A stretch of 64,000 bases of DNA, from the NCBI GenBank assembly GCA_023667315.1, contig JAMPAI010000006.1, positions 1 to 64,000 on the forward strand. Direction: 5' to 3'. Below are positions 8,677 through 56,209 of the stretch, piece by piece. The stretch comes from Ruminococcus flavefaciens (lineage in GTDB: Bacteria > Bacteroidota > Bacteroidia > Bacteroidales > P3). Position 1 is the first letter of the stretch. Each line of letters opens with the position of its first letter. The notes beneath the pieces are model-generated. The model ran no database searches, was not told the DNA's origin, and saw nothing but the letters and a program-made list of their open reading frames with translations. The translations under genes were made by a program, and so were the position numbers.

Positions 8677-8690
8677 GACATAACTATAAT
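8677..8690 (+). promoter_or_regulatory. Class II (late-type) promoter
   Basis: GACA at 8677-8680, six bases, then TATAAT at 8687. It matches RACA-N6-TATAA and is 26 nt before the start of the 386-aa gene. Confidence 0.6.
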
Positions 8691-8715
8691 TTTACTATAT
8701 TGGCGGTGATAGTTT

Positions 8716-9876
8716 ATGTTGAAGGATCAATTTGGGCCTAGAATCGCCAAGGCTCTCACACCGGCAGCTATCAAAGCTTTAGACAAGGGAGTTTTAGATT
8801 ACGTTGACCGGAACTCTGAAATTTTGCTGACTTTGGATCTTAGTCGCAGATTTTCATTTGGCGATCAGGATCGGGAGGTTCTGTATAAGGCAATCGGTAT
8901 CACGGAAGCGGAATTGGATGCCGCTATTAAACAGAGTAAGCAGATCTATAGCGGCAATAAAATTCAATCGAAACCGTTTTATATCGCGTCTATGTTGGTA
9001 GCTTCTCATTTTTTGAACATGAAGTCTACTGAAGGAGAACGGATGGCCAAGGTAGTTGTTACGTATATGTCGCTGAATATGTGGACTTCTCTACATAAGG
9101 GTTTCTTCAAATATGAGGCGAATAAGCAAATTATGGACTACACGTTGGCTCATCTGAACAACACCTTCTCCATTCGTGAGTTCCCATCTCTATTTGCATT
9201 CATTCAGGACAATACGAATACCGTTCTAAACACGTATGCAGATAAGATCAAAACTTGTGGAGATAAGGATATGACCTGGGTTATAGACTCTACCTGGACG
9301 CGGTTGAAGGGTAAAATGAAGAAGATTTCTTCTGAGTTTTATAAGAACCATCAGGCTGGCAATTATCTGAATGCGGATACAGAAGAGTGGACATCTGATA
9401 CGTATCGGGAGATGGACAATCAGTCATTTGCAACTGATCGGTTAGCGAACAAGGTATATATTAAGCTGACGAACAGACAATATGATCGACGGTTCATCAA
9501 GTATAGTATCACCAGAGCTGATACTTCATTAGACAAACTTTCTCATTTGATTGAGGATATCATCGATCAAGATGGAGAAGATCAATCTATGCGGAAATTG
9601 ATCAGTGCCATGATCGAGTTCTATTTGTTGCAATCTGGTAAGCCGATTCAATATGTAGCAAAAGGTGATTTCATTGCCTTCATGCAAACATCTTTCGGTT
9701 CAAATACCGAAGTCCCGCAGATGAAGTTGATCAAGAGTACGATCGATCAGTGGTTGGCACAAAACATGTACAAGTATGGCAATGCGAGGTATGGTAATAC
9801 TGTAAAGCTTCAGTATCGTCGATGCATCTACATGTTTTTTGTTTTTATCATCAACTATGAGGCGAAATTACAGTAA
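8716..9876 (+). CDS. Unknown late protein (386 aa)
   Basis: Not recognised. A 386-aa, largely helical protein without membrane segments or obvious catalytic motifs. It opens an operon behind a late-type promoter and terminates where the gene at 9889 begins. Because this operon holds a candidate RNAP beta-like piece at 10457, a virion or RNAP-associated role is possible but unproven. The ribosome binding site (GGCGGTGAT) is weaker than usual here. Confidence 0.8.
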   Translation: MLKDQFGPRIAKALTPAAIKALDKGVLDYVDRNSEILLTLDLSRRFSFGDQDREVLYKAIGITEAELDAAIKQSKQIYSGNKIQSKPFYIASMLVASHFLNMKSTEGERMAKVVVTYMSLNMWTSLHKGFFKYEANKQIMDYTLAHLNNTFSIREFPSLFAFIQDNTNTVLNTYADKIKTCGDKDMTWVIDSTWTRLKGKMKKISSEFYKNHQAGNYLNADTEEWTSDTYREMDNQSFATDRLANKVYIKLTNRQYDRRFIKYSITRADTSLDKLSHLIEDIIDQDGEDQSMRKLISAMIEFYLLQSGKPIQYVAKGDFIAFMQTSFGSNTEVPQMKLIKSTIDQWLAQNMYKYGNARYGNTVKLQYRRCIYMFFVFIINYEAKLQ

Positions 9877-9888
9877 GGATGGTGCTAT

Positions 9889-10368
9889 ATGAAACGACCT
9901 GTGAGTATCAACTTTTTGACTCCGCAAGAGAACGAGTGTTTGGAACTGTTGGTTCAAGCCCAGGATATGTTCGATGCTATCTGTAAGCAGGATCCGCAGA
10001 ATTCCACTGATGCATACAATTTTGGTCATTATGTCGATGCTGCTCGTACTGCAGTTTTGGTGCGAGGCGCTCGGCGAATGGATTCTGAGAATCTGTTGGT
10101 GAAACATTCTCCTAATGAATCGACCACGAAAGCGTTCGATGAATTGATGAAGAAGCTGTCTCCTGATCAGGATACTCAGCCTTCTCAAATTGATGCACCA
10201 AGAACCTATCCAAGAGCAGTTCCTGTATCCGAGAAGCCGACTCCGTATAGCGGCAAGTCTACCTTTAAGCCGATCGAGGTTTCTCTTACTCCTGAACTCC
10301 GCAAATCCATCATGGAGACAGTCCCAGGTATGCTGACTGAGATTCTCAATAAATTGGAAGGCAGGTGA
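9889..10368 (+). CDS. Unknown protein (159 aa)
   Basis: Not recognised. An N-terminal helical half is followed by a proline/serine-rich linker and a short C-terminal helix. AAGGATG precedes ATG 9889. It is the second gene of the late-type operon, 12 nt after the first. Confidence 0.75.
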   Translation: MKRPVSINFLTPQENECLELLVQAQDMFDAICKQDPQNSTDAYNFGHYVDAARTAVLVRGARRMDSENLLVKHSPNESTTKAFDELMKKLSPDQDTQPSQIDAPRTYPRAVPVSEKPTPYSGKSTFKPIEVSLTPELRKSIMETVPGMLTEILNKLEGR

Positions 10369-10374
10369 GAATCT

Positions 10375-10485
10375 GTGGAAAATTTTTACGGCAGGCTGTA
10401 CGTGGCGTTGCTCCTTACCCAAGCACTAACTACTGTGGCGAAGGGAGGAGAGTCTAATGGCGAGTGCTCTGAGGAAGGAGATTGA
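10375..10485 (+). CDS. Possible 36-aa small protein with hydrophobic segment
   Basis: GTG 10375 follows AGGTGAG and opens 36 codons. Residues 8-22 are hydrophobic enough for a short membrane helix. It fills an otherwise empty gap and overlaps the next gene by 29 nt. Support is coding potential only. Confidence 0.3.
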   Translation: MENFYGRLYVALLLTQALTTVAKGGESNGECSEEGD

Positions 10486-13627: not shown

Positions 13628-14866
13628 ATGAGTAACAATCTGAACGAGAAGGACATTCAGGCCATGCTGAGAGAGGCTGATGGTGCCAAGACTACTCTCG
13701 CTGCCGAAGAGGAGAGCGAAAATGCTTCCACCACCGTCCGTCAGGTTCTCGTTATCGGCTGCGGCGATGGCGGCTGCAACATCTCCACTCTGATCACTGA
13801 TCGCGTTCCGCATGATGTGTTCTCCATTGCATATAACACCAGCGTCCACAATATGAAGGAGAACGTGCTGGCCAACAAGAAGGCGCATATCCAGGGTGAG
13901 GACGGCTCCGGTAAGGTGCGCGACTATTCCAAGAACATCTTCAAGAACGGGACCTATGAGACGGTCATCGGCTACGTGAATGAGGGCATCCAGTCTCTCC
14001 ACGGTGTGGACTATGTCCTAATCACCACGACTGCTGATGGCGGTACCGGTTCCGGTATGAGCATCATTCTGGCCAAGCTCTTGGCCGACAACCTGAAGCT
14101 ACCCGTTATCGTTCTGGGCGTATATCCTACGATGGACGATGATGCTCAGTCCCAGTTTAATGCACTGGAGTGGCAGTCCGAGCTTACTCGGTCCGGTATT
14201 CCTCACTTCATCCTGGACAACAACATTCCCCATCAACAGTCCACTGAGACCGGCGATTCTAAGGTGGCCGAGGTCCACAATAAGGTCAATGAGCAGGCTG
14301 CTCGCATTGCGGCACTTCTCACTGGCACCAACTTCGGTACCAGCACCAAGGGGATGATTGACCGGCGCAATCTTCTGAACCTGACGATGGGCATCGGCGG
14401 GCGCATGGTGGCTACCTCTGATACCACCCGGCCTACTGCTGGTCAGACATTGGATGACTACATCGAGAATATGATTCAGAAGTCCTGCCAGCCTCTGCCT
14501 ATGGGTGCTACTGGTATTGGCGTGTGGGTCAAGGGCCCCAAGGATATGCTGGCACAGATGAATACGGATCTGCATGTTCTGCAAAGCAAGTACGGCGAGG
14601 CCCAGCTGAAGTTCGCTCACATCGAAGAAAGTACCGCGACTGAGATCGGCATCATCATGACTGGTTGTAATGAGGCTGCTGACCGGTTGGCTGGTATGAA
14701 GCATCGGTATGATGACATCATGAGCAAGGCTCAGAAGAAGGAGTCCTGCATCGATGGTCTGATGTCCGGGATGACCAATCCGATGGGTGGGCTGAACAAG
14801 AAGTTTGGCGGATCTGATGTGATTTCCGGCTCCGGTGAGCTGGATACCAGTGCATTCGATCTGTAA
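13628..14866 (+). CDS. Tubulin/FtsZ-family GTPase (PhuZ/TubZ-like)
   Basis: A 412-aa cytoskeletal GTPase. A Rossmann start (VLVIGCGDGGCN near 40-51) and the tubulin signature DGGTGSG at 137-143 in TTTADGGTGSGMS place it in the tubulin/FtsZ/TubZ superfamily. Phage members (PhuZ) form filaments that position the replicating phage DNA or phage nucleus; TubZ segregates plasmids. The N-terminal ~35 residues are an acidic extension. Codons are GC-rich, implying high expression, and the gene is followed by its own terminator, so it appears monocistronic. Whether it centres a phage nucleus here cannot be told from sequence. Confidence 0.9.
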   Translation: MSNNLNEKDIQAMLREADGAKTTLAAEEESENASTTVRQVLVIGCGDGGCNISTLITDRVPHDVFSIAYNTSVHNMKENVLANKKAHIQGEDGSGKVRDYSKNIFKNGTYETVIGYVNEGIQSLHGVDYVLITTTADGGTGSGMSIILAKLLADNLKLPVIVLGVYPTMDDDAQSQFNALEWQSELTRSGIPHFILDNNIPHQQSTETGDSKVAEVHNKVNEQAARIAALLTGTNFGTSTKGMIDRRNLLNLTMGIGGRMVATSDTTRPTAGQTLDDYIENMIQKSCQPLPMGATGIGVWVKGPKDMLAQMNTDLHVLQSKYGEAQLKFAHIEESTATEIGIIMTGCNEAADRLAGMKHRYDDIMSKAQKKESCIDGLMSGMTNPMGGLNKKFGGSDVISGSGELDTSAFDL

Positions 14867-21550: not shown

Positions 21551-23656
21551 ATGTCTATGCATCGCGAAGAAAAGGAAGTTGTCAGACGAGCAAAAGACTT
21601 GAGATACCCAACCGATCGGTTGGGTCCAACATCGTTGATGACACAAGTGAGCCATACCAACAGCTCACGCGTTATCATGCTGGCCAGTCAGTTTGGTCAC
21701 ATGGTATCAATCAAGGATCCGGAACAACCGCTGGTACCAACCGGGTTCGAGAATGTACTGTCGGAGTATTCTCCGATGCTGAATCAGGCGGATGGCGACT
21801 ATGAGATAGTTGCCAAGTTCGCCAAAAATGAGTACACCTACGTGCTCATTGGCTATGACAAGAAGCGAAAACTTTATCATGCCTGGAAACGGGAAGAAGC
21901 GGAAGAGCATTCCGAGGGATTCTCCACCAGGTATGATAATAAGTATATCGATTCTCTTGAGGTAGGGGATAGCATTGACCTCGGCGCATATGTACAGAAG
22001 TCTACTAACTTTGATAAGCATATGAATTATCAGTACGGCAAGAACATCAATGTTGTCTATCTGGTATCTCCATATGTATATGAAGATGGTATTCTGGCTA
22101 TGAACGGGGTGGATGAGATGTTCAATACATTCCGTTCTCATACTAAGAGGATCAAACTAGGCGATAACGAGGTTCTGGTAAATCTCTACGGAGGATCTGG
22201 AGAGTATCAAGGACTCCCGAAGATCGGAGAGAAAACAAAGAATGGGATTGTCTGTGCGGTACGTCGCACAGACAGTGCTAGTGCCCCTCGGTCGCTGAAG
22301 AATGATAAACTGCGCGCAATCGAGCGAAGTGATCGTCTGTGTTATGGGTCCGGCCGTGTCGTGGATATTGAGATCCTGACGAATCGAGATCCTGATAAGA
22401 TGCCGGACACTGGAGCAAATAAGATGGTCAAAGAGCTGTATATGCAACAGCAGGAATACTATCGGAATCTGTTCCACTATATGAACGACATTGCAGAACG
22501 AGCGGACGATGAAGGATATACCTACTCGGATGGGTTTGGTATTATCGCAGCGGAAGCCCGGGACTTCATCGATGCGTCCGCATTCTTTGCCGACAGCAGC
22601 GACACTGTGTATGGTACGACGGAAATCGTCATTCATCTTCTGGATGAAGAAAAGATGATTGTTGGATCGAAGTTCGTTGGTCGGTCTGGTAACAAGGGCG
22701 TCATTGCTAAGATTCTTCCCAAGGACCAGTCGTGGACAATGGAAGATGGCACTCCGATTCATTTCGTAGTTGCAGCACTCGGTATCGTTGGTCGGTTGAA
22801 TCAGTCACAGTTGAATGAGCACTCCTGTAATGAGCTCGGGGCGAATGCTGTTCGTATGATGAAGCAGACGAATGATGTCGATGAGAAACTCAAGATTGCG
22901 ACAAAACTTCTAAAGCATCTGAACCCTGATGAGGCGCAGGACTTCAAGAAGTGGTGGAAGAATCTCGATGAGAAAGAACGGGCAAAGTTCGCTAAGCGCA
23001 TTGAGCGTCGAGGAATCACGATTGTCCAAGATCCGATTGATAATTCGGATATTCTGGATATCGCCCGGGCATATGAGGATTTCCCACCGAATTATCAGCG
23101 AATAGTGTTCCCAGATGGCGGAAAATCTATGCGCAAAATTCTGTGTGCTAAGATGTTCTATGTCAGGTTGAAGCAGGATCCATTGGAGAAGTATTCAACG
23201 AGATCTCGCGGACCGGTGAATCCTCTGACCACGTTACCGGCGAAATCTAATCTTAAGAAGAAGTCGGTGATCCCATATTCAGATGTACCGGTCAGATTTG
23301 GAGAAATGGAGATCGAGATTCTGCAAGCTATGGTCCCACACCCCCACGCGATCGCAGATTTTATGATGGAGAACTCCACCAGCTTCGATGCAAAATTCGC
23401 AATGTCCAGAGATGCTTATTTGGCACATCTGTTCGACGAAGTATTTATTCGAGCTGATGACGAAGAGCTGGACGAAGAGGAAGCGTTTAATCAAGTTAGC
23501 GAGTTATTCCAGCAGGACTACGATAGCGGTAGTGATGAGATCATTGCAAAGGGCAAGAAAAATATTGAGCAGATTGCTGCGTATCTGAACGTACTTGGTA
23601 CGAAGATTAATATTGATTACGAAGTTGCGCCGGAAGGTGAATATTTCCAGGGATAA
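21551..23656 (+). CDS. RNA polymerase beta subunit, C-terminal half
   Basis: A 701-aa equivalent of the C-terminal half of bacterial RpoB, part of a split multi-subunit phage RNAP. The N terminus corresponds to the beta segment after the rifampicin region (SSRVIMLASQFGH and PLVPTGFE). VSPYVYEDGILAMNG at 172-186 matches the WEGYNYEDAI segment. VGSKFVGRSGNKG at 371-383 matches the GDKMAGRHGNKG catalytic loop with its two active-site lysines. RFGEMEIEILQAM at 582-594 matches the C-terminal anchor. Its partner, the beta N-terminal half, is at 28756. No beta-prime (NADFDGD) segment is present in this window. It sits in a class I operon, consistent with the intracellular enzyme rather than a packaged one. 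Confidence 0.92.
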   Translation: MSMHREEKEVVRRAKDLRYPTDRLGPTSLMTQVSHTNSSRVIMLASQFGHMVSIKDPEQPLVPTGFENVLSEYSPMLNQADGDYEIVAKFAKNEYTYVLIGYDKKRKLYHAWKREEAEEHSEGFSTRYDNKYIDSLEVGDSIDLGAYVQKSTNFDKHMNYQYGKNINVVYLVSPYVYEDGILAMNGVDEMFNTFRSHTKRIKLGDNEVLVNLYGGSGEYQGLPKIGEKTKNGIVCAVRRTDSASAPRSLKNDKLRAIERSDRLCYGSGRVVDIEILTNRDPDKMPDTGANKMVKELYMQQQEYYRNLFHYMNDIAERADDEGYTYSDGFGIIAAEARDFIDASAFFADSSDTVYGTTEIVIHLLDEEKMIVGSKFVGRSGNKGVIAKILPKDQSWTMEDGTPIHFVVAALGIVGRLNQSQLNEHSCNELGANAVRMMKQTNDVDEKLKIATKLLKHLNPDEAQDFKKWWKNLDEKERAKFAKRIERRGITIVQDPIDNSDILDIARAYEDFPPNYQRIVFPDGGKSMRKILCAKMFYVRLKQDPLEKYSTRSRGPVNPLTTLPAKSNLKKKSVIPYSDVPVRFGEMEIEILQAMVPHPHAIADFMMENSTSFDAKFAMSRDAYLAHLFDEVFIRADDEELDEEEAFNQVSELFQQDYDSGSDEIIAKGKKNIEQIAAYLNVLGTKINIDYEVAPEGEYFQG

Positions 23657-41208: not shown

Positions 41209-41216
41209 TTAATAAC

Positions 41217-41701: not shown

Positions 41702-41902
41702 ATGGATAAGTTTCTCGAGACCTATGAGGCTAACAAGGCAAAGCGGGCACGGTATGCGAAGGCAATCAAGCGGCAGAAGATTGAGGGGATCATTCTGATC
41801 ATCCTCGCGATTCTCATGCTGGATGGCGCGGCTGGCGGTTCCCTCGTGATCGGGGGATTCGGCCTGTGGGCTCTGCTCAGCAAGGAGGTGCTGGCATGGT
41901 GA
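41702..41902 (+). CDS. Small membrane protein (66 aa)
   Basis: A basic N terminus (1-26) precedes one or two membrane helices (about 28-62, with Gly-rich centre). Function unknown. AGGAGG precedes ATG 41702. Overlaps the next gene by 7 nt. GC-rich codons suggest notable expression. A lysis-related or membrane-modifying role is possible. Confidence 0.75.
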   Translation: MDKFLETYEANKAKRARYAKAIKRQKIEGIILIILAILMLDGAAGGSLVIGGFGLWALLSKEVLAW

Positions 41903-42300
41903 GACCTGTTGAGAACAAGGGCATGGAGATCCTCAGAGATTTCCACAGTTACTACGATGCCCTCAGCATGATCGCCGGCGGCATCAATTTCGGTACCACC
42001 ATCAATAAGGGAACCTATATGCGGATGGATGAGAACTACTTCGAGATCGTCACTGAAGGCAAGGTGGACGAGATCGATTACCACATGGTCCTGCAGTTCC
42101 AGGGTGACGGTATCCTGATTGCGAAGCTGTATGCATATTGCAGAAACATAAGCGACGAGGTCCCGGATAACTGCCGGTACTATACCAGCTTCGATGATCA
42201 CAACCGGGATTATGCTCTGGCAAAACTCCGGGAAGTTCTCCCGAAGATCAATCCGCAGTCACATCACTTCGATCCGACTTGGAGTCGGTATGGATACTGA
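41896..42300 (+). CDS. Unknown protein (134 aa)
   Basis: Not recognised. ATG 41896 follows AGGAGG. A 134-aa soluble protein, probably translated together with the membrane protein it overlaps, and sharing its GC-rich codon use. Confidence 0.75.
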   Translation: MVRPVENKGMEILRDFHSYYDALSMIAGGINFGTTINKGTYMRMDENYFEIVTEGKVDEIDYHMVLQFQGDGILIAKLYAYCRNISDEVPDNCRYYTSFDDHNRDYALAKLREVLPKINPQSHHFDPTWSRYGY

Positions 42301-42305
42301 GAAGA

Positions 42306-42340
42306 GGGCGGGTGGCCAAAAGGTCATCCGCCCATTTTGT
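42306..42340 (+). terminator. Rho-independent terminator
   Basis: A 12-bp stem with two G-T pairs, loop AAAA, then ATTTTGTTC. Confidence 0.8.
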
Positions 42341-42370
42341 TCAATCGCTGTAGCTTTTTATTTTTTATGA

Positions 42371-42384
42371 AACTTGTATATAAT
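42371..42384 (+). promoter_or_regulatory. Class II-like promoter
   Basis: AACT (one change from AACA) at 42371, six bases, TAAT at 42381. Heads the operon 42405-46106. Confidence 0.45.
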
Positions 42385-42404
42385 CTTAAAAATAGGAGGG
42401 GCTT

Positions 42405-43199
42405 ATGGCACCATTCAATTCCATTGATATTCTCCAGTTAGCCAATAAGATGACTGTCTTAGGTGGTGCTACACTGGATGAACAGCTCACGTTCCTGGAG
42501 GAACAAATCCAAAAACCGTTTACATCAAACAATTCCAATTATTTCAAGGAGATCAAGCGTCTAGTTTCCTCGAAAGATGAATTGGATGAGCACTGCGCCA
42601 CCTGTATTACACAGATCCAGGATGTCTACCCTGGATTGACAATCGACCTGTCCGAGTATGATAAACATCTTGCCGGGTTCTTTATGAATTTGTACAAATT
42701 CTTTGTGAAGGATGCTCAGAAATTGATGTATCTCTTCATCAAAGAGTTCATCTTTAACAACAAGAACCGTAAAGGGCTGGTGGATCCCTATAACACTGCG
42801 GCAGTGGTCAACTATCCGAAGGAGCAGTATGGTAAGAAGGAGTTCTATCTGCTGATCATCAAACTCCCGAAGATCCTCGATGATATTTTCGACGATGGCG
42901 TCAAACTGAAGAAATTCATCGAATACATTTCCAGGAGTGAGGATGCTCCCGTTTATCTGGATTACATTCGCGAACGTATGGACGATGGTTACATTATCGA
43001 TAAAGGTGTCGTTGCTGATATGTATGCGATGTTTAAGAAATCTGAGTTGTATCGATCTCAGCTGAATAAGCTGGAGATCGACATTTACAATTCTCTGATT
43101 CTTCCGTACATGGAGGCGAATGGGCTTATGGATGTTCGGATTCCTGCTGCTGAAGATATCCCGGAAGAAACTGATGAGGAGGATGATGACGATGAATGA
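42405..43199 (+). CDS. Probable structural protein (264 aa)
   Basis: Not recognised. A 264-aa helical protein with an acidic C-terminal tail. TAGGAGGGG precedes ATG 42405. First gene of a late-type five-gene operon. Its stop overlaps the next start. Confidence 0.7.
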   Translation: MAPFNSIDILQLANKMTVLGGATLDEQLTFLEEQIQKPFTSNNSNYFKEIKRLVSSKDELDEHCATCITQIQDVYPGLTIDLSEYDKHLAGFFMNLYKFFVKDAQKLMYLFIKEFIFNNKNRKGLVDPYNTAAVVNYPKEQYGKKEFYLLIIKLPKILDDIFDDGVKLKKFIEYISRSEDAPVYLDYIRERMDDGYIIDKGVVADMYAMFKKSELYRSQLNKLEIDIYNSLILPYMEANGLMDVRIPAAEDIPEETDEEDDDDE

Positions 43200-43623
43200 G
43201 TTCAATACGGCGAACGTATATGGGATGTCTGTATATTCTCTGGCGAGTATTGATGCGCCGAGCGATGATGTGGAGTCGGGTCTGTTCGATAAAATCTTCA
43301 CCCCGGATTACTGGAATGATGGATGGAACAAAGCCTTTGCAGTGTATGTTCGACCCAAGCTGTATGAGATCATGGGCTGGACAGAGCCAGGCAGAACTTT
43401 TGACTCATCGCTCACTCTGCATATCGATGAGGTGCGGGAGCATCTGCATTCACTGCGTCGACATCATATCACCTTCAGTAGCTATACTGTTATGGATGAT
43501 GGGACCGTCCTAATCATCAGCGGTAAGTATACTACAGACGATTGTGATATGACCGACCCCGCAAATATTACGCGCTACGATGAAATTGTCAATATGATAA
43601 GAGGAGGATCTACAAATGAATAG
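43192..43623 (+). CDS. Unknown protein (143 aa)
   Basis: Not recognised. ATG 43192 is chosen among several in-frame ATGs for spacing of 10 nt from AGGAGG. Overlaps its neighbours by 8 nt on both sides, so the genes are translationally coupled. Confidence 0.65.
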   Translation: MNEFNTANVYGMSVYSLASIDAPSDDVESGLFDKIFTPDYWNDGWNKAFAVYVRPKLYEIMGWTEPGRTFDSSLTLHIDEVREHLHSLRRHHITFSSYTVMDDGTVLIISGKYTTDDCDMTDPANITRYDEIVNMIRGGSTNE

Positions 43624-44050
43624 CGTTATTAATTGGGACCTGGTTACCCTGGATGAACTCACGAGCAAGCGATACGGGATATGTGGAATGTACGGCATGT
43701 CCGATACGACGAGTCGGTACGAGGTGCTATATCCTTACCTCGAAAAGTGCTACTTGTTTGGTACACCGGATGGCCGGAAAGAGCTGACGGTAATTCTCAA
43801 GGACACCAATGAAGCCAAAGATACATTGGGTAGAATATATCGTGAGTTCAACATCCGATTCACTGGCATCCTGTTGACGAATATTTCCAACATCATCAAT
43901 AGCAACAGTTATATTTTCAACGGAATAATCAGCGCTGGCGAGTGGTATGAGCTTGACGACAAGCCCGGTTTTGTCGGTTGCCCGAAGATGCATTTCGATC
44001 TGATTGATCCGGTTGTCGCTTCGGTCATTCTGAAAAATGCGACTATATAA
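43616..44050 (+). CDS. Unknown protein (144 aa)
   Basis: Not recognised. A 144-aa soluble protein overlapping the previous gene by 8 nt, with AGAGGAGG upstream. It is part of the late-type operon. Confidence 0.7.
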   Translation: MNSVINWDLVTLDELTSKRYGICGMYGMSDTTSRYEVLYPYLEKCYLFGTPDGRKELTVILKDTNEAKDTLGRIYREFNIRFTGILLTNISNIINSNSYIFNGIISAGEWYELDDKPGFVGCPKMHFDLIDPVVASVILKNATI

Positions 44051-45636: not shown

Positions 45637-46106
45637 TTAGAAACTTATTCCAATTCGCACTTATCATCGCTATGATTGGGTGCGGATCTATCCTGCCATC
45701 CATGTTTCAGATGGCAGCATTTTCTGTCATTAAGGAACGATATGGGAATTCGAGGTATACCGTGACAATGTGGGTGTTGTATGAGATACTACTTGCAGCA
45801 CTCATTATGATGATCATGGCTGGATCCTGGCTGATTATCTCGATGCTAATGAACGCATGGTGCAAGGGTTTCATCTTGCATTTCATGTCCAATACTTTAT
45901 TGAAATGGTTCTATGGATACATTCTGATTTGTACATATCTGTACATGAATCTGATGGGTCCTATCCGTGCCCGAATGCGCGATGATGAACGAGTATCAGA
46001 TCCCGTCTGTATCTTACAATGGATCACATTGGTCATCTACATGTTTATCATGATTGGACTCATGGTAGTGTATGTTCGGATTTGGTTCATCCCGACTTTT
46101 TCTTGA
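45633..46106 (+). CDS. Polytopic membrane protein (157 aa)
   Basis: About four membrane helices in 157 aa (near 4-25, 45-72, 84-103 and 130-152). ATG 45633 overlaps the previous stop by 4 nt. The function is unknown. In a late operon, a membrane protein of this kind could act in lysis, as a holin-like protein, or as a packaged membrane-channel protein; neither can be shown. Confidence 0.75.
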   Translation: MIRNLFQFALIIAMIGCGSILPSMFQMAAFSVIKERYGNSRYTVTMWVLYEILLAALIMMIMAGSWLIISMLMNAWCKGFILHFMSNTLLKWFYGYILICTYLYMNLMGPIRARMRDDERVSDPVCILQWITLVIYMFIMIGLMVVYVRIWFIPTFS

Positions 46107-46118
46107 CATCTCTATAAA
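46105..46118 (+). promoter_or_regulatory. Class II (late-type) promoter
   Basis: GACA at 46105, six bases, TATAAA-like at 46113. Overlaps the end of the preceding gene and lies 15 nt before ATG 46133. Confidence 0.5.
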
Positions 46119-46132: not shown

Positions 46133-46954
46133 ATGGTTACTCCCTTTAAATTTGATAAAGAAAAAGTCGTTGTCGACTGTTTCGCAGTTGAACTGTATCT
46201 ACCGGCTGAATATGCTGAATCAGCATATCGAGGAACTCCGTATTATTCCGTGCTCGGAACGAAAATCAAGTTCCTTGGAATCGGGAATTTTCGATTTTTT
46301 AACTCCGAGAAAGAAATGGAGCATCCGGAGGACTATCCCTGCTATCCGTTTGGAATCCCGATGTTGATTACAACGGAGCCAATGGAAATCGATGTCCGAA
46401 ACGTAAAGTTTTCCAAAACTGGTCCAGAGAGAAACTGCCTTGTATTGACATACTTGAAAGGAGATCCTTTCATTGTCAATAAAGAAGTCATCAAAAATTC
46501 AGATCCATTGATGATGTACTTATCCAGATTGGAACAAGGCAAGCTGGATCACGTTCCGCCTGAAGTTGCTGTACAAATCCTTCAGGATTGCGAATCGATG
46601 AACGGCTTGAGTCTTCGAATTCCTTCCGAGGAAGAGGAGATCTTTATCGCTGAACGTTACCGTGATCCTGATCATCCCGAAAGAGCATATCGGTATCATA
46701 CTGGGAATCTCGATCCTGATCGGATTGTATCCCGGAATATGAGAACCGATGCCCATCAAGCGACCACGTTCCAAGCCGTCATGCACGAGGATATCTCGAC
46801 TGGTTTGATTACTTCTGCGAACCGACATCGTAGAGGTGATATTGATCAGATCGGGTTATTCGAAGCACTCATTCGCGGTAAGGACATGAGCCAGTTTGCA
46901 GAACAGGATAAGGAGGGTGACAACAATGACACCGGAAAGTCTGCCAATAGTTAA
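46133..46954 (+). CDS. Probable tail/virion protein (273 aa)
   Basis: Not recognised. A 273-aa protein with a beta-rich N-terminal half (to about 120) and a charged C-terminal half. The position between a late-type promoter and the tail sheath suggests a tail or baseplate component. Confidence 0.7.
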   Translation: MVTPFKFDKEKVVVDCFAVELYLPAEYAESAYRGTPYYSVLGTKIKFLGIGNFRFFNSEKEMEHPEDYPCYPFGIPMLITTEPMEIDVRNVKFSKTGPERNCLVLTYLKGDPFIVNKEVIKNSDPLMMYLSRLEQGKLDHVPPEVAVQILQDCESMNGLSLRIPSEEEEIFIAERYRDPDHPERAYRYHTGNLDPDRIVSRNMRTDAHQATTFQAVMHEDISTGLITSANRHRRGDIDQIGLFEALIRGKDMSQFAEQDKEGDNNDTGKSANS

Positions 46955-47100: not shown

Positions 47101-47114
47101 AACATTCTTATAAG
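47101..47114 (+). promoter_or_regulatory. Class II (late-type) promoter of the tail operon
   Basis: AACA at 47101, six bases, TAAG at 47111. TTATAAGCAAC here also appears at the minus-strand site near 56196. It is 115 nt from the sheath start codon, leaving a long leader. Confidence 0.65.
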
Positions 47115-47228: not shown

Positions 47229-49130
47229 ATGCTGTTCCTTAATGCGGGAAGTCAGTATGACTTCTCATACGCAACATTGAAGATCATCGACGAGACAGCT
47301 ATCGATGACAGCACGGCTGAAGTGGAACGGGAAGTACCCGACTTTAACGTGCTGATTCCTACTGTCCAGGCGATTGGATCTACCAATAAGATGGAACTGT
47401 ATTGGCCGGACGGGCTGAGCAAGTACCTGCGGAATCATGGTAATCCTAACCATATCCAGTACGGATTCGGTCCCGATTACATTACCGCGGTGCTGAATCG
47501 TCCGAACGCCAACGTCGGTGTGTACACCGTAAATCTGCGTGGTCCTTCCGCGACCATCGCAAACATCGTCGTCCTGATGAAGTACAAGGTTGAGGAAGGT
47601 GTTCCTTACCTGGATGGTTCTGGTAATCAGTATTACAAGGATGCTGATGGCCAGCTGACCACCGACTACGTTGAGGGCGGCGAGATCACCCGTGATGTCC
47701 TGCACGTCAAGTTTGAGACTACCAAGATCGAGGAGCTCAAGAATTGGCGCGGCCTGCACAATGGCCTGAATGCAATCGTCAACGATACAGAGGACGATGA
47801 GGGGTATCGTACTCTGCCTTGGTTCGGCGTGATGTATCAGGGTGCAAGTGCATGGGCCAACAACACCTACTTCAGCATGGTTCCTACCGTTGCGGAGTAT
47901 GACAATAACACCTATTACGGCATCAAGCTGTTTGACGGTGTCAGCATGAAGACCACTGAGAGTATCTACTCTTTCGATCGGGACGCCGGTGGAAAGCGCG
48001 ATCTGAGTTACTACATCGAGGAGAAATTCAACGAGGTGTTCCCCACCATGCGTTGGATGACTGCCGAGGATTCCGATCGCATCGTGGAGCTCTTCAATAA
48101 GTATCTGTACAGCGTGGATGACTATCTGAACGACAAGATGGATTCTCCCACCATGAAGTTCAGCTCTGTCGATCCGTTCACTGTCGATACCTTCGGCATC
48201 GTTGTCGATGAGGGTTCTGTGAATTCTCAGCTGACCAATGCCTTCCAGATGACTGGTGGTTACGACGGCGATGAGACTCGCGATGAGCTCTTCGAGATGT
48301 TCTACCGTGGGCAGATCATCACCGATATCACCAATCCTCTGTGCTATCGCATTCCCTACATTCCCGACATCGGCTACAACCAGCAGACCAAGGATGCCAT
48401 CGCATGGCTGATTGGCAAGCGTATGCGGACTACTTCCGCATCCATCATGCTGGGTAATACCGAGTCCTTCCAGTCTGCGGTGATCGATCACCAGGCCAAC
48501 TGGATGGATGACAACCCGAACATTCACCAGCTCACTTGGCGTCAGGCTCCCATGATGTACAACGAGTACACTCGTCGGACCGTGACGACTCCGACTGGTT
48601 ACTTCGATCTGATTGCCCTTCTGGACAATATGATCAAGTGGGGTCATCCCTTCCATCCCTGCGCTGGTGCCGACTGCCGTTACCAGGGCTATGTCGAGGA
48701 CACTATGGCTTTTGCGGATGAGGAGCCTGCATATATGCAGTCCCTGCAGAAGGCCCGCATCAATGTTGTCATGCATGACAACAAGAGCGGTGCGTACATC
48801 GCTGATCAGCTGATGAATACCCGTCAGTTCTCTGACCAGACGGAGTTGAACAACGCGTTCATTATTTCCTGCATGGTCTACGACCTGATCGACCTGGTTC
48901 ATCGCAATCACTTTAAGTTCAACGAGGCGGATCAGGTTCGTCAGTTCAACGAGGCCGTTGAGTCCAAGATCAACACCCGTTATGCCGAGCACTCTGCTTC
49001 TATCAGCGCAACTGTTACCCGTCTGGGTACTGTTGGTCGTGCTCGCTACACCAACAAGATCACAGTGCGCGTCGACCTGAAGGATATCAATCGGTACACT
49101 GATATCGAGATTATCCTGGTCGATGAATAA
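47229..49130 (+). CDS. Contractile tail sheath protein (633 aa)
   Basis: A 633-aa protein with the layout of myovirus sheath proteins: an N-terminal domain, a variable middle, and a C-terminal part with GGYDGDE (about 343-349) followed by the conserved helical core. The end of the sequence has the ISATVTRLGTVGRARYTNKI strand pattern of sheath C-terminal arms. GC-rich codons indicate one of the most abundant products. AAGGAGG precedes ATG 47229. It is paired with the tube gene, as in nearly all contractile-tail phages. Confidence 0.75.
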   Translation: MLFLNAGSQYDFSYATLKIIDETAIDDSTAEVEREVPDFNVLIPTVQAIGSTNKMELYWPDGLSKYLRNHGNPNHIQYGFGPDYITAVLNRPNANVGVYTVNLRGPSATIANIVVLMKYKVEEGVPYLDGSGNQYYKDADGQLTTDYVEGGEITRDVLHVKFETTKIEELKNWRGLHNGLNAIVNDTEDDEGYRTLPWFGVMYQGASAWANNTYFSMVPTVAEYDNNTYYGIKLFDGVSMKTTESIYSFDRDAGGKRDLSYYIEEKFNEVFPTMRWMTAEDSDRIVELFNKYLYSVDDYLNDKMDSPTMKFSSVDPFTVDTFGIVVDEGSVNSQLTNAFQMTGGYDGDETRDELFEMFYRGQIITDITNPLCYRIPYIPDIGYNQQTKDAIAWLIGKRMRTTSASIMLGNTESFQSAVIDHQANWMDDNPNIHQLTWRQAPMMYNEYTRRTVTTPTGYFDLIALLDNMIKWGHPFHPCAGADCRYQGYVEDTMAFADEEPAYMQSLQKARINVVMHDNKSGAYIADQLMNTRQFSDQTELNNAFIISCMVYDLIDLVHRNHFKFNEADQVRQFNEAVESKINTRYAEHSASISATVTRLGTVGRARYTNKITVRVDLKDINRYTDIEIILVDE

Positions 49131-50594: not shown

Positions 50595-51317
50595 TCAGCA
50601 ATTCACAATATAACCCCAAAAGATCTCTTCGATTCCATTTTTGGCAATCTGATATGTCATAATATACACATCTGTCATCAGGGTTTCTTGTACATTGAAC
50701 TTGAACAGATCAACTTCCTTGATTCCAAGGAACATTGAGCGGAACAGAGGAACTCGGATCTTCATACCAGCGTTTTTCAATACATAGTAATAGATCTCCG
50801 GTGTGCTATTAATCCGTTCTTGTAATCCCTGATAGACTCCATCAATTTCCATACAGATTCCGCCGGGCTTGATACGGTCCAATAACAGATTGTATTGTTT
50901 CATGATATTCATTACATCATGATCGATATCCGTTGGCCGTATAACAGGAATCGATAGAGTACACATGGATTGATCTGCTACACGAAAAGCAATTTTGAGT
51001 TCATTCTCGACCAGATATACTTCCTCAACCAGATCCTTTGGTTTGTACTTATTCGCTTTACGATAGGCATCGACTTCTTTATGCGCCATGTTATAATTCT
51101 TGATAATATCTGGAAGATTTAGAAGCACTGTTTGATCATAAAACTCAGATTGATACTCTTCAGTATCCGGGATGGGCAGGATATAGTGTAACCCTACATC
51201 ACTATCCACATCCAGATCGAAACATTGCATAAGCAAACGATTCGACATCAGCAGAGTTTGATACTTCGAACGAGTCGCTCGCTTCAGCAATGTAAGAAAT
51301 CCTTTTGCACTGGTCAT
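50595..51317 (-). CDS. Candidate DNA sliding clamp (240 aa)
   Basis: A 240-aa protein whose layout resembles T4 gp45-type clamps: FLTLLKRA, then LLMSNRLLMQCFDLD, a VLLNLPDIIKNY segment at the position of the first clamp helix, and a second similar half. The similarity is by pattern and length (gp45 is 228 aa), not a motif match. The ATGA overlap with the polymerase N-terminal half makes them translationally coupled, which is strong context for a polymerase processivity factor. A polymerase accessory subunit of another kind is the alternative. Confidence 0.45.
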   Translation of the reverse strand: MTSAKGFLTLLKRATRSKYQTLLMSNRLLMQCFDLDVDSDVGLHYILPIPDTEEYQSEFYDQTVLLNLPDIIKNYNMAHKEVDAYRKANKYKPKDLVEEVYLVENELKIAFRVADQSMCTLSIPVIRPTDIDHDVMNIMKQYNLLLDRIKPGGICMEIDGVYQGLQERINSTPEIYYYVLKNAGMKIRVPLFRSMFLGIKEVDLFKFNVQETLMTDVYIMTYQIAKNGIEEIFWGYIVNC

Positions 51318-53368
51318 ACAACTATCGCCTTCTTTCTCTCCATGAGTTTCTTGTGCAGATCTGTAACCGTCGGAAGATTAAACCACACGTTACCAAGTGC
51401 GATTACATTTTGACTGAGATAATCTGAAACGAATTCACCTCCAGGCAAATATGCCTTGATTTCTTGAATTCGTTTCTTCTGACCCATCGGGAGGGTATTT
51501 TGACGTTCAGAAATTTTCTCAGGAATGATTAGACGACCTATCTGTGTACTCTTACTCAGAGATCTGGTATATTTCGCCCATGGGTACTCAGATGCAAAGT
51601 CCATATCCATGATGTGTTCCATCATGTGTTTGCTCTTAACACCCTTGATCAATTCGATACCATTCTCCGTGTTGAAGTCAGGATCAGCCACCATACCACC
51701 GGGTATACTGATCTTTCGATCAACACTATCTTCATAGATACCAACCAATCCAGCGGCAACCTCTTCAGCAACTTTCTGAGTATTCTCGTCGAATTGTTCC
51801 TCAGTCTCATTGCCTAGATCATCCGTATCTTTTTCCAAGAAGAGTTCTTCTACTGCTTCTTGATCCGCTTTTTCTCGTGCCAATCGAGCTTCTTCCATTC
51901 GTTCCAGATAGTCTTCCGATTCCCCTCGGACATAGCTGATATTCGGGTTATTGCCCGGAACAAATCCCTTACGAAGATAGTTGGTATAATAGATCTGCCG
52001 TTGATACCGAGTTTGCTTCGTCAGATTCTCCAGAGATGTATTGGACTGGTTCATATCGTATACCATAGACATACAGTCATTGGTAACAATATCGATCATA
52101 ACCTGACGGACAACGTCGATGATGTTGTACAGGACGAATTCCCAATACGACTCAACTGCTGCATTCAGGACGTTCACTCCAGGTTTAGTAAACTTCAACT
52201 TACCCAAGCCGAGCTCAATGTTGGAGATGTTATCCAATGCTGACGAACCGAACTGCTTCATACCTTTACGCAATCCGCCATACGATTGCATCTGATCGAT
52301 ATACGACGTAGTCGATGCCATTCGGATATACGTCTTTTTATCCGAAATCTCAATACCCGGACGTGTATCGATATTCATCTCCACAAATCGATAATCCTTC
52401 GGGAAAGTAGAATCGCACATCGCATCGACATAGTTGATTCCATTGGCTTCCATACGAGCTGCAATCTTTGGGATATCGTATGCGATGTTCCATACACTGC
52501 AAGTATCTGGACGATACTTATTGATCACCTCAAAGATCCGATTCAGAAGTTTTCCTTCGTCATCGAACAGCTCGATATGATAATCGGCCACGAAATCGAT
52601 CACCTGTGACTTCTCACCCTTCGTGACAGTCGTGTGATCGATTGTTTCATGACACTGTTGGATAAACTCATCCAGATGTTCCTCAAAGTGTTTCTGTTGA
52701 GGATATCTTCGATGATTTCTCAGGAGGAATGTGAACACTTGCGGCTTGATCTTTACTTTCCAATGTGGGTCGAAGTTAAAGATAACCGTACAGGCGTTGA
52801 TTTTATCCAGATTCGCCGCTTGTTCGGATGATGTAAATCCAAGGGTATCAGCCTCGATATCCAGATAGGCTTTATCGATGATATGGTTTCGCATGGTATT
52901 GTAGTGATACCCAAGCATGATCCGATAATACTCTTCTACACCCATATCGGAGAACAGAGTGTACGGCCATTTGAAGATTTCTTTCATCGCTTGTCGATTT
53001 CCGCAATTCTTTGATTGGGTATAGATCGACTGTAACACCTGAGATTGTGGATCATTCGCTTTTACCAGTTCTTCCCATACAGTTGGAAGAACCTTAGTTG
53101 CTGGAACTTTCCGTGAGTATACATCTTCCATCGGAAGATATTCTCTCGGTGTTCTGAATTGATCTCGGATTTCGGGGTTTGCGAAATAGATCTCCATGCT
53201 CGGATGCTTGATTGCCCGGATCTTCTTTGTATCCGTATCGTCTTTATAAACGATAAATAACACATCATCTTTACCAGCATTTCGATGCTTCCATTGCTGG
53301 TAATATTGTACCGAGAATACTGTAATCGGAGCATTCTCTGGTTCGTTCAAAATACCTGTCATACTCAT
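51314..53368 (-). CDS. Family B DNA polymerase, N-terminal half (exonuclease and motif A)
   Basis: A 684-aa protein with all three proofreading exonuclease motifs: D170-I-E172 (AYLDIEAD), N294..Y297-D298 (NIAYDIP), and Y414...D418 (YNIID). Motif A of the palm follows, with D590 in MDMDFASEYP, matching DFxSLYP. Motifs B and C are missing and occur in a separate gene at 56266 on the other strand. Together they would form the replicative polymerase. Residues about 485-545 are an acidic low-complexity insert. AGGAGG precedes the minus-strand start at 53368. Neither promoter class is obvious upstream. Confidence 0.9.
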   Translation of the reverse strand: MSMTGILNEPENAPITVFSVQYYQQWKHRNAGKDDVLFIVYKDDTDTKKIRAIKHPSMEIYFANPEIRDQFRTPREYLPMEDVYSRKVPATKVLPTVWEELVKANDPQSQVLQSIYTQSKNCGNRQAMKEIFKWPYTLFSDMGVEEYYRIMLGYHYNTMRNHIIDKAYLDIEADTLGFTSSEQAANLDKINACTVIFNFDPHWKVKIKPQVFTFLLRNHRRYPQQKHFEEHLDEFIQQCHETIDHTTVTKGEKSQVIDFVADYHIELFDDEGKLLNRIFEVINKYRPDTCSVWNIAYDIPKIAARMEANGINYVDAMCDSTFPKDYRFVEMNIDTRPGIEISDKKTYIRMASTTSYIDQMQSYGGLRKGMKQFGSSALDNISNIELGLGKLKFTKPGVNVLNAAVESYWEFVLYNIIDVVRQVMIDIVTNDCMSMVYDMNQSNTSLENLTKQTRYQRQIYYTNYLRKGFVPGNNPNISYVRGESEDYLERMEEARLAREKADQEAVEELFLEKDTDDLGNETEEQFDENTQKVAEEVAAGLVGIYEDSVDRKISIPGGMVADPDFNTENGIELIKGVKSKHMMEHIMDMDFASEYPWAKYTRSLSKSTQIGRLIIPEKISERQNTLPMGQKKRIQEIKAYLPGGEFVSDYLSQNVIALGNVWFNLPTVTDLHKKLMERKKAIVV

Positions 53369-53508: not shown

Positions 53509-54135
53509 ATGACTACAAGTAGCAGATTTATGTTAGAAACAAGCGAAAAATGCTTGACCCTGTATCCGGATGAGTTGGACACGATTTTTGGTACGGGAGA
53601 CGGAGTGTATCTCCGCATTGATGATGTCATTCTTCATTGTCAAATCGAAGGAACGGAATACTGGAGAAAAAGAAAGCTGACTCTGCGTAATGCAGGGTCG
53701 GCTTCTATTCTGGTAACGATGTTCATCTTCGAAGGCGAGAGCTATACCATTCGAACGAAAACTTGTGGGAAGGAGGTATTGGTGAGCAAGAATCAGCTCC
53801 CGAAATCTCTCACCAATAAGGTCGGATGGGCATTTGGATTTGTGTCCAAAAACTGGACACCGATGGATCAGCTGTACAATATCTATCTGAGATATCAGAC
53901 GGATACTGATGCAAATAAACCAGTATACAAAGTGTTCAGCCCCTGGTTACATGCTACTTATCAGCTCGACACTGGTGGTAGTTATTCCGGGTCTGCTGTA
54001 TATTGGTCCACTGATGGTAATCCATCTCAGGATGAAGCTCTCACTTTGATGCAGAAGATGACAGATCGTTGTGCGAATGATCACAATCGCTCTCGTATCA
54101 ATTACGTGATAAATCAACTCCAGCCTGTTGCGTAA
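53509..54135 (+). CDS. Unknown protein (208 aa)
   Basis: Not recognised. A 208-aa soluble protein with two central beta-rich segments. AAGGAG precedes ATG 53509. Lies between the two DNA polymerase halves; monocistronic. Confidence 0.75.
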   Translation: MTTSSRFMLETSEKCLTLYPDELDTIFGTGDGVYLRIDDVILHCQIEGTEYWRKRKLTLRNAGSASILVTMFIFEGESYTIRTKTCGKEVLVSKNQLPKSLTNKVGWAFGFVSKNWTPMDQLYNIYLRYQTDTDANKPVYKVFSPWLHATYQLDTGGSYSGSAVYWSTDGNPSQDEALTLMQKMTDRCANDHNRSRINYVINQLQPVA

Positions 54136-54199: not shown

Positions 54200-54267
54200 G
54201 GGAGTGGGTCAAACGTAACGGCCAACCCACTCCCTATTCAATTATACGGGAATACCGGATCCCGTAT
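54200..54267. other. Two further hairpins in a 326-bp gene-free gap
   Basis: 54200-54209 pairs with 54225-54234 (10 bp), and 54244-54251 pairs with 54260-54267 (8 bp). The gap 54136-54461 otherwise holds the 52-bp repeat and a leader with small hairpins such as GGGGTAATCCCC near 54433. Confidence 0.6.
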
Positions 54268-54288
54268 AAAATTGTTGCTATTTCTTTT

Positions 54289-54340: not shown

Positions 54341-54461
54341 TGTAAGGAGTTACGTGCGATATTTGAACATCGCCATACCGACTTTACCTTCCAAATTTGC
54401 TATGGTGGTAGGCAGTAAAGAAATACCATCTAGGGGTAATCCCCGAAAGAAAGGATTCAAA

Positions 54462-55523
54462 ATGAAGGCTCTGTTTGTTGCTACTAAGAAGGAAACCAAC
54501 GCTCTGGTCAACGGCATCAATGAAGTCAGCGATCTCTTCTGCGACAAGAACGTCATCACCGGCGAGATGATCCACAACGCCAAGAAGAATGCTGAGCGGG
54601 CCGACGTACACCACTTCGCTGGCGGCTGGGCTCAGTTCCGCGGCGAGAAGAACGTCGAGGGTGATACCAGCATCTCCGACTATGCCATCGAGATCTCCGC
54701 TGAGGAGGATGCCACTGTCCTCATGATCCAGGCCATGGTCAAGATGATCGTCTACTTCGCCCCTGTCATTACTCCGTTGCTCTCCGTGTGGGTCAGCCTG
54801 AAGTCCCTCAGCAAGAATTGGAAGGATTTCGCCCATTCCGTCGGTAACGAGTTCCGGGAGAAGTTCCACAAGCCCAGCACCTATGCGAACATGACGATCT
54901 TCAGCGAAGAGGCTGACGTCGCCGCCGTGGTCATCATCAAGAAGGATGGGTATGGCAACGAGCCCTACATCGTGGAGTCTGTTGAGATCACTGATGGTGT
55001 CGGCATTGACATGCTCACTCGTCTGTGGAAGCAGATGGAAGCCCGCGTCGATACTGCGACTGAGTACTATCCCCATGCTGAGTATATCTTCGATAACATC
55101 GAGGATGCTCGGGAGAACATGGAGAAGGGTCTGGTATCTCTGCGCAAGGATTACTTCGGCATGAAGAACGCCCGCGCTGAGTCCTCCAGCGAGATTAAGG
55201 AGACTGCTGATGATCCCATCGAGTATGCCGCGGTTCTGGTGACTGACGGCAAGAGTGATATCGTAGATGATGTTGCTATGGTCCGTGTTATCGATGATAG
55301 TATCATCGTGATTAAGCACACTCACAACCTCAGTCTGTCGGATGACACTTTCTCCGAGAGAGTCCGTGTCGCTCTGAAGAATAAGGATGAATATCAGCTT
55401 GTCACCAAGGAGAAGGCCCGGTACCTGTACACCAACGTCGTTGAGGCTTTCGAAGGTGATCCCGCTGGCTTCACTGCTGACGATGACGCTGCGAAGATGG
55501 GTTACATCGCTGTGAAGATCTGA
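54462..55523 (+). CDS. Abundant unknown protein (353 aa)
   Basis: Not recognised. A 353-aa protein with one hydrophobic stretch near 97-110 and an acidic C-terminal half. ATG 54462 with AAAGGATT is preferred because codon use becomes GC-rich only from there, but an in-frame GTG at 54354 has a good AAGGAG and no stop intervenes, so a 36-aa N-terminal extension made from it is possible. Shares the duplicated promoter with the gene at 114, so both may belong to one early, strongly expressed set. Confidence 0.75.
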   Translation: MKALFVATKKETNALVNGINEVSDLFCDKNVITGEMIHNAKKNAERADVHHFAGGWAQFRGEKNVEGDTSISDYAIEISAEEDATVLMIQAMVKMIVYFAPVITPLLSVWVSLKSLSKNWKDFAHSVGNEFREKFHKPSTYANMTIFSEEADVAAVVIIKKDGYGNEPYIVESVEITDGVGIDMLTRLWKQMEARVDTATEYYPHAEYIFDNIEDARENMEKGLVSLRKDYFGMKNARAESSSEIKETADDPIEYAAVLVTDGKSDIVDDVAMVRVIDDSIIVIKHTHNLSLSDDTFSERVRVALKNKDEYQLVTKEKARYLYTNVVEAFEGDPAGFTADDDAAKMGYIAVKI

Positions 55524-55536
55524 TCAAAGAAGAGAG

Positions 55537-55568
55537 AACGCCCGGGGAATTCCCCGGGCGTTTCTTTT
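55537..55568. terminator. Terminator with palindromic core, shared by convergent genes
   Basis: An 11-bp stem AACGCCCGGGG/CCCCGGGCGTT with loop AATT and TCTTTT on the plus side. The same CCCGGGGAATTCCCCGGG core as at 32854 and 34381. Genes converge here. Confidence 0.85.
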
Positions 55569-56130
55569 ACTTCTTCGGCGTATTTTTATCCACTACAGCG
55601 GCAACCTTGCCAGACTTCCGAGTCTTCTGCCACAGCTTCTTGGCAAGACGCTCGGCCTTTGCGCCATAGATCCGGCGCATCTCTTCCATGTTGGTCTTCT
55701 TGATCTTCTGGCCCAGCTTGTACTTCTTGTACGCTTTGTGACCAGCCTTGCGGCCCATCTTCAGAGTGATGATGGTGGACAGGCGCTTGATCTGTGCCTG
55801 CTTGTTCAGATGAACCACGTTGATCTTGGGATTACTGATGCTGACGGTGGCGGCCTCATCGATCAGACCCTGACCAACGAAGTAATCCTGCAGTGTCAGT
55901 ACTGCATTCTTGACACCCTCATCCAGTTCATCTGCGGACTCACCCAGGATCATACCCTGGATCATCAGGCCCATCAGATCAGCGGTGCACTCCTGCATAA
56001 ATGCTTGGTCATTTTCGTACTCGGCGATATCATCGTCCGTAACAGGAGTCTGGTCCGGCTGGACGCTCTGCAGTGCATCCTCGTTCAGACTCCCAGTGGC
56101 GATACCGCGAAGGGTTTCCATGAGATTCAT
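55567..56130 (-). CDS. Probable late protein with basic C terminus (187 aa)
   Basis: Not recognised. An acidic N-terminal half (to about 90) and a very basic C-terminal half (about 115-187), suggesting DNA binding or packaging inside the head. It has a minus-strand late-type promoter upstream, at 56196-56209, and AAGGAGG before the start. GC-rich codons suggest abundance. An internal head protein is a reasonable guess. Confidence 0.7.
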   Translation of the reverse strand: MNLMETLRGIATGSLNEDALQSVQPDQTPVTDDDIAEYENDQAFMQECTADLMGLMIQGMILGESADELDEGVKNAVLTLQDYFVGQGLIDEAATVSISNPKINVVHLNKQAQIKRLSTIITLKMGRKAGHKAYKKYKLGQKIKKTNMEEMRRIYGAKAERLAKKLWQKTRKSGKVAAVVDKNTPKK

Positions 56131-56195
56131 TACGTAATGTCCTCCTTGTTTTTAGGATAGTATTTAAACTGAAACGCGTTTCACAACGACTGTTG

Positions 56196-56209
56196 CTTAT
56201 AACATTGTT
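56196..56209 (-). promoter_or_regulatory. Class II (late-type) promoter, minus strand
   Basis: Read on the minus strand: AACA, six bases, TAAG, followed by CAAC as in the tail-sheath promoter. About 66 nt before the start codon at 56130. Confidence 0.6.

Follow-up and report, generated by a model that had tools for sequence, protein, structure and literature searches.

The non-virion RNA polymerases (nvRNAPs) of the jumbo phages AR9 and phiKZ are homologous, yet they recognise their promoters through different DNA strands and different subunits, and one of them needs uracil in its DNA (as presented in PMC9209446 and PMC12809450). In AR9, gp226 and the N-terminal part of β, βN, recognise the −11 to −8 box through the template strand (PMC9209446), and in phiKZ the β-like GP123 recognises the TATG through the non-template strand (PMC12809450). 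The promoters reported for AR9 are of two classes, early with the motif AAATATATATTAT-(6N)-G and late with AACA-(6N)-TA/G (PMC5312081). Discovery of late-promoter motifs by bioinformatics is said to have failed for these phages (PMC7598289). The subject here is RACA-N4-TATAA, a word found in a window of 64,000 nucleotides, bases 1–64000 of contig JAMPAI010000006.1 (hereafter C66; 125,357 bases, in the 88-contig assembly GCA_023667315.1). Comparison of sequences makes it very probable that this word marks the late promoters of a jumbo phage related to AR9 and PBS1, and that the phage's own nvRNAP recognises it.

There are eight exact matches to RACA-N4-TATAA (equivalently RACA-N6-TAA) in the window, at 8677, 36051, 39985, 46105 and 47101 on the plus strand and at 33679, 35321 and 56197 on the minus strand, where 100 dinucleotide shuffles gave 0.81 on average and never more than 5. 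All eight had been located in a preliminary description, which had also suggested a comparison with shuffled sequence. It had, however, written the word as RACA-N6-TATAA, which has no match in the whole window, and RACA-N6-TA by itself is not enriched there (44 seen, 58.5 expected); the real spacing is N4. In the whole contig the counts for N2 to N6 are 2, 2, 14, 2 and 0, and in the related phage contig G001 (described below) N4 has 34 against 6, 5, 5 and 2 for N2, N3, N5 and N6, so only N4 stands out. Seven of the eight window matches lie between called genes, although intergenic DNA makes up 6.6% of the window, and the pattern is thus less frequent within genes than ahead of them; equal frequency was what the preliminary description had named as its refutation. 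The eighth, at 8677, falls inside a 43-codon gene call that is probably spurious, since the N-terminus that the following gene has in common with its G001 counterpart sets the start at 8716, 26 nts downstream. All eight sites are 15–115 nts upstream of a gene on the same strand.

That AT-rich intergenic DNA simply yields TATAA, with RACA incidental, has a negligible probability. TATAA alone does favour intergenic DNA (45 of its 114 occurrences in the window), but none of the 100 shuffles reached eight, the other spacings are low, the controls with YACA or the reversed pattern are lower, and the sites recur at orthologous genes despite diverged flanks. The word is also not a general feature of the host assembly, in the whole of which it has 50 matches and the reversed control 54; C66 accounts for 14 of the 50.

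The recurrence can be followed in contigs of related phages from IMG/VR: G001 (230,855 bases), G066 (259,863), G065 (105,182) and G067 (287,660), with L088 as a further member for which the gp226-like protein was compared. (Three shorter IMG/VR contigs encode a gp226-like protein that shows no difference from the G001 one in the 590 residues compared.) Intergenic DNA is 6–9% of each of the five phage records, and the share of sites that are intergenic is 12 of 14 in C66, 30 of 34 in G001, 32 of 38 in G066, 7 of 12 in G065 and 24 of 35 in G067, or 105 of 133 altogether. Nearly all of the intergenic sites (102 of 105) face the next gene, at a median of 36.5 nts from its start codon. Matches exceed those to the reversed pattern in each record (14 vs 4, 34 vs 15, 38 vs 19, 12 vs 5 and 35 vs 7, in the same order), and the YACA control is lower than the motif. 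No excess over the reversed control was seen in AR9 (15 vs 28) or in BpSp (18 vs 19), LPJP1 (20 vs 32), Machias (15 vs 28), S6 (11 vs 26), SA1 (17 vs 21) and phiR1-37 (4 vs 9).

C66 and G001 have 64 reciprocal best hits. Scored for a site within 400 nts, both members have a site in 11 pairs, one member only in 2 pairs on each side, and neither in 49 (Fisher p=7.6e-9). The fixed letters of the 11 shared pairs match by definition, while identity is 36% in the spacer and 33–38% in the flanks, and the shared sites are therefore not just unchanged DNA. Recurrence at orthologs holds for 9 of the 10 genome pairs (p between 1e-3 and 1.8e-12); the remaining pair, C66 with G065, has no common site among only 14 orthologs. 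The base at −11 (the numbering is explained below) is the same, A or G, in 12 of 12 sites shared by C66 and G001. For the other eight site-sharing pairs the agreement is weaker, at 7/9, 8/10, 19/23, 11/12, 15/21, 7/9, 20/23 and 4/6, with uncorrected p of 0.008–1. The choice of A or G at −11 may mark two sub-classes of late promoter.

The carrier of the sites is, by its protein matches, a phage of the AR9/PBS1 kind, and is called a distant relative because most identities to AR9 are 20–40%. Searches with blastp against AR9 open reading frames matched, on C66, the nvRNAP subunits βC, βN and β'C, a gp226-like protein and the β'N of the virion RNA polymerase (vRNAP), and further the major capsid protein, sheath, terminase, both gyrase subunits and two DNA polymerase parts. 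The C-terminal β subunit of the nvRNAP (homolog of AR9 gp089) is encoded at 21551–23656 (+) and the N-terminal one (homolog of gp105) at 28756–30606 (+); just outside the window are the genes for the gp226-like protein (C66 64885–66678) and β'C (C66 66727–68928), all four being assigned by sequence match. The split subunits and gp226 homolog that characterise the AR9-like nvRNAP holoenzyme are thus found on C66 as βC, βN, β'C and the gp226-like protein. The gp226 match is firm when profile is aligned to profile (hhalign 99.2%, pairwise E 5.9e-20, 341 columns). With blastp against the AR9 open reading frames alone it is weak (E 2e-5), tblastn against phage records gave only E 0.02 or worse, and phmmer against PDB chains missed gp226.

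With +1 predicted to be the fourth letter of TATAA, in AR9 numbering, RACA occupies −11 to −8 and TATA −3 to +1. The likeness to the AR9 late promoter, as described in PMC5312081 and PMC9209446, then extends to ACA at −10 to −8, the six bases from there to T(−1) and a purine at +1. All of these are present here with the spacing fixed, and the exact spacing is enriched and intergenic. The late consensus given for AR9 in the preliminary description, AACA-N6-TW, agrees with the AACA-(6N)-TA/G that was published (PMC5312081). The polymerase is homologous, and the promoter sites stand before corresponding virion genes: in AR9 itself, AACA-N6-T[AG] with a leader of 22–38 nts precedes 8 of 9 corresponding genes (g052, g114, g115, g121, g125, g126, g145 and g153), where 83 of 296 AR9 genes overall, as called here, have it within 100 nts. 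No late-type site was found within 200 nts before AR9 g226, g154, g152, g132, g089, g105 and g044; the gyrB gene g024 has one at 151 nts.

There are also differences from AR9. The −11 position is not A only: of the 55 intergenic RACA-N4-TATA sites of C66 and G001, 37 have A there and 18 have G, and in AR9 intergenic GACA sites are not enriched (16 against 14.7 expected by area). TA is favoured at −3/−2, being present in 16 of 24 intergenic [AG]ACA-N6-T[AG] sites of C66 (11 of 18 with AACA, 5 of 6 with GACA) against 18 of 110 AACA sites of AR9. C66 sites lacking TA number 8 where area predicts 12.9 (AACA 7 vs 7.5, GACA 1 vs 5.4), and its six-base spacer is not the unconstrained one of AR9. The relatives have slightly more AACA sites lacking TA than area predicts (G001 24 vs 17.5, G066 31 vs 21.5, G065 10 vs 5.8, G067 22 vs 17.5). 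It is in this TA that a likeness to phiKZ appears, for TAT at −3 to −1 is followed by a purine at +1, and TATA takes the place of the TATG described for phiKZ (PMC12809450). The differences are that +1 is A by definition of the motif, and not the G of T(−3)A(−2)T(−1)G(+1), and that a RACA box accompanies the TATA upstream. Profile alignment (hhalign) of the homolog to GP123, made to map the GP123 pocket by sequence, reached a probability of only 14%.

The late sites, written RACA-N4-TATAA, stand before virion, terminase and vRNAP genes. A different word came to light in the upstream regions that have no late site, where de novo k-mer counts returned Shine-Dalgarno words, TTCTTTTT and words like ATATAYTATA. 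The last is almost wholly intergenic (20 of 20 in C66, 25 of 25 in G001, 32 of 37 in G066, 10 of 11 in G065 and 27 of 30 in G067). It stands directly before the genes for the gp226-like protein and β'C, and also before g029 and g036, which precede βC and βN; other examples in the window are before 8048, 12012, 28061, 33801 and 35407. No ATATAYTATA lies within 160 nts before the gyrase genes or the catalytic DNA polymerase gene, and the only one before the other DNA polymerase gene (51314–53368) belongs to its divergent neighbour. The word differs from the RACA-N4-TATAA motif; it resembles the AAATATATATTAT of the AR9 early promoter (PMC5312081) and is placed before early-type genes. The predicted two-class arrangement of C66 mirrors the early and late classes of AR9.

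Several observations weigh against reading RACA-N4-TATAA as the late promoter of such a phage. Two of the eight window sites, at 8677 (before a gene like AR9 g052) and 39985, precede genes without known function; the preliminary description had placed all of them before virion or assembly genes, which holds for six, where there is virion, protease or sheath support, and fails for these two. The correspondence with AR9 is imperfect in both directions, since AR9 g112 has no late-type site although its C66 counterpart has one, and AR9 g117 (capsid) and g127 have such sites while the corresponding genes of C66 lack sites of their own. Sites inside called genes are 5 of 12 in G065 and 11 of 35 in G067. 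The set of polymerase genes is incomplete: the β'N of the nvRNAP is seen in G001, G066 and G067, not in C66, and no homolog of the G001 vRNAP β subunit was found in the host assembly. C66 is colinear with G001 from 125 to 230 kb and therefore holds about half of the phage genome. Finally, T follows TATAA at 55 of the 105 intergenic sites, in partial resemblance to the −10 box of σA promoters. On that resemblance, and on the TATAA core itself, could be built the alternative that these are host promoters, TATAA(T) being a −10 box read by the bacterial RNA polymerase. This is very unlikely. There is no −35 box: a TTGACA-like sequence at 15–19 nts with at least 4 of 6 matches accompanies 22.9% of sites, where shuffling gives 21.9%, and for at least 5 of 6 the figures are 5.7% and 2.8%. 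To our knowledge σA promoters have no RACA box spaced at exactly N4, and the phage carries late polymerase genes of its own. The comparative tests thus favour late-class promoters for a phage nvRNAP, as the preliminary description had it.

If the nvRNAP reads these sites, does it do so as the AR9 enzyme does, from uracil-containing DNA with the template read as 3′-UUGU? Such a faithful AR9-type promoter is unlikely, though less so than a host promoter. The ACA core and its distance to T(−1) are as reported for AR9 (PMC5312081), and both the nvRNAP and gp226 are homologous. The pocket residues, however, are changed. At gp226 position 206, seven of seven AR9-type phages have Val, which in AR9 is described as blocking the methyl group of thymine, the V206G enzyme using −10T and −10U promoters equally (PMC9209446). 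Here the residue is Gly in C66 and G001, Leu in G066, Pro in G067 and Val in L088, so that the gate valine is kept in only one of five. At position 210 Tyr or Phe (seven of seven AR9-type phages) gives way to Arg in five of five members of the clade, and at βN position 363, in the pocket for the −10 base, Arg (seven of seven) gives way to Ser in four of four. A ‘natural V206G’ throughout the clade was considered and is ruled out by the L, P and V of the further relatives. In the proteins compared residue 206 is not conserved, and glycine is not the clade rule because Leu and Val also occur. A correlation of residue 206 with thymidylate synthase was likewise dropped: L088, with Val, shares its metagenome number with G065, which has the enzyme, and the pair would be contrary if they are one phage.

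The genes of thymine metabolism bear on the same alternative. Thymidylate synthase (PF00303) is encoded by three of the four relatives, G001, G065 and G067, and by none of the seven AR9-type phages; dihydrofolate reductase is found in the same three and, in G001, lies one gene from the thymidylate synthase. The best solved relatives of the G001 enzyme are 1b02 and 1bko, which we take to be the thymidylate synthases of phage phi3T and Bacillus subtilis. On the side of uracil, no PF00303 match was found in G066, C66 is without the half of the genome where the G001 gene sits, and L088 retains the gate Val. Against it, GACA is used alongside AACA, and tblastn with AR9 Ugi and the AR9 g151 deoxyribonucleotidase gave no homolog of either in the five phage records. 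The Ugi part of this is weak evidence, for phiR1-37 is reported to have uracil DNA without Ugi (PMC8150378). The deoxyribonucleotidase family includes the PBS1 dTMP phosphatase, described as depleting dT (PMC12697855). Among the phages used for comparison, uracil DNA is reported for AR9, S6 and phiR1-37 (PMC8150378) and for BpSp (PMC7598289), and is supported by PCR for LPJP1 (PMC8460666); for Machias and SA1 it is only presumed. With the uracil-gate valine not conserved and thymidylate synthase encoded by three of four relatives, thymine DNA is likely for most of the clade, the relevant half of the C66 phage being outside its assembled contig. G066, in which no thymidylate synthase was matched and the gp226 gate residue is Leu, could be a uracil-DNA member.

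The predicted late promoters of the window, each with its predicted +1, are as follows. GACA-TAAC-TATAA at 8677–8689 (+), with +1 at 8688, lies before the AR9 g052-like gene that starts at 8716, and a GACA-N4-TATAA is at the same place before the G001 ortholog. On the minus strand AACA-CCCA-TATAA at 33679–33691 (+1 33680) precedes a virion gene, 32889–33662, and AACA-TCCT-TATAA at 35321–35333 (+1 35322) the prohead protease gene, 34414–35280, with a site before the protease genes of G066 and G067 and none before that of G001. GACA-TTTT-TATAA at 36051–36063 (+; +1 36062) is before 36103–37266, the first of three genes of which the last is the major capsid gene, 38198–39886. AACA-CAAC-TATAA at 39985–39997 (+; +1 39996) is before 40030–41208, a gene without assigned function, whose orthologs have AACA-N4-TATAC in G001 and AACA-N4-TATAA in G066 and G067. 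GACA-TCTC-TATAA at 46105–46117 (+; +1 46116) precedes the virion gene 46133–46954, and AACA-TTCT-TATAA at 47101–47113 (+; +1 47112) the tail sheath gene 47229–49130. AACA-ATGT-TATAA at 56197–56209 (−; +1 56198) is before the virion gene 55567–56130 (−). For AR9 g153, the counterpart of this last gene, a transcript is reported only by 20 min of infection (PMC5312081).

Of two weaker forms in the preliminary description, one is plausible as a promoter and the other is not. AACT-TGTA-TATAA at 42371–42383 (+; +1 42382), before the gene 42405–43199, has a counterpart AACT-TTGA-TATAA at the G001 ortholog, a GACA form in G067 and none seen in G066. Where sites of G001 and G066 deviate at −8, the base is most often T, though only 8 of 16 such matches are intergenic; for AR9 almost no preference between U and T at −8 is described (PMC9209446). 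The other, AACAATCTAGTTG at 38120, was rejected, having no TATA and forming one arm of a predicted hairpin found also in G001. That hairpin, at 38107–38129 just upstream of the major capsid gene, has the loop GGTGGAAC, and G001 keeps the hairpin with its stem sequence changed. A ninth match, to RACA-N4-TATA at 54264–54276 (−), faces the 3′ end of the gene 53509–54135 (+) and may be antisense or chance. No strong RNA structure was found in the late leaders (z-scores −1.9 to +0.1 for 8 leaders, from two gene families). T runs such as TTCTTTTT occur upstream of late promoters, several after GC-rich inverted repeats (e.g. before 40030 and C66 114250), and in sequence resemble intrinsic terminators; C66 has 24 copies of TTCTTTTT, 8 of them intergenic, and G001 has 68, with 31 intergenic.

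No report of the RACA-N4-TATAA motif or of the C66 phage lineage was found in open PMC papers. Megablast of window positions 34000–44000 against phages gave no match, and scans of genome contigs revealed no relative. The major capsid protein as query found no relative in viral contigs, in a scan that is insensitive, as G001 holds a 65% identical capsid; among genomes of host relatives a capsid was found in 1 of 61, the assembly that holds C66 itself. The window also encodes a tubulin/FtsZ-family protein (13628–14866) that matches the PhuZ family (PF00091, phrog_4733), with homologs in G001, G066 and G065; a spindle tubulin is typical of nucleus-forming phages. A phage-encoded GroEL-like chaperonin (61131–63044) and both gyrase subunits (830–6170) are present as well.

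We infer a cascade for this phage in which early-type genes, including those for the gp226-like subunit and β'C, would carry ATATAYTATA for the injected vRNAP, by analogy with AR9. The newly made nvRNAP would then use RACA-N4-TATAA to activate, on both strands, the genes for the virion, for packaging and for the vRNAP, with transcripts starting at the fourth letter of TATAA. As to how the word would be read, a tentative proposal, to which we give somewhat less than an even chance, is a two-part late promoter that bridges recognition in AR9 and phiKZ, two modes that have until now been described separately. RACA at −11 to −8 would be for the sigma-like subunit and TATA at −3 to +1 for the β-lobe, on thymine DNA and with a remodelled −10 pocket. 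The remodelling would consist of βN Arg363 to Ser, the gp226 aromatic residue 210 to Arg and the gate valine freed, with the glycine at 206 in C66 and G001 resembling the laboratory V206G enzyme that accepts T.

A late-promoter motif derived here from sequence alone predicts start sites in uncultured jumbo phages. The glycine found naturally in two members, C66 and G001, occupies exactly the position that, when mutated in the AR9 enzyme, allows it to read thymine. If the promoters do carry both signals, the evolution of the uracil/thymine switch would become directly testable, and the clade with two-part promoters would be a link between the uracil-dependent and the thymine-using polymerases of jumbo phages.

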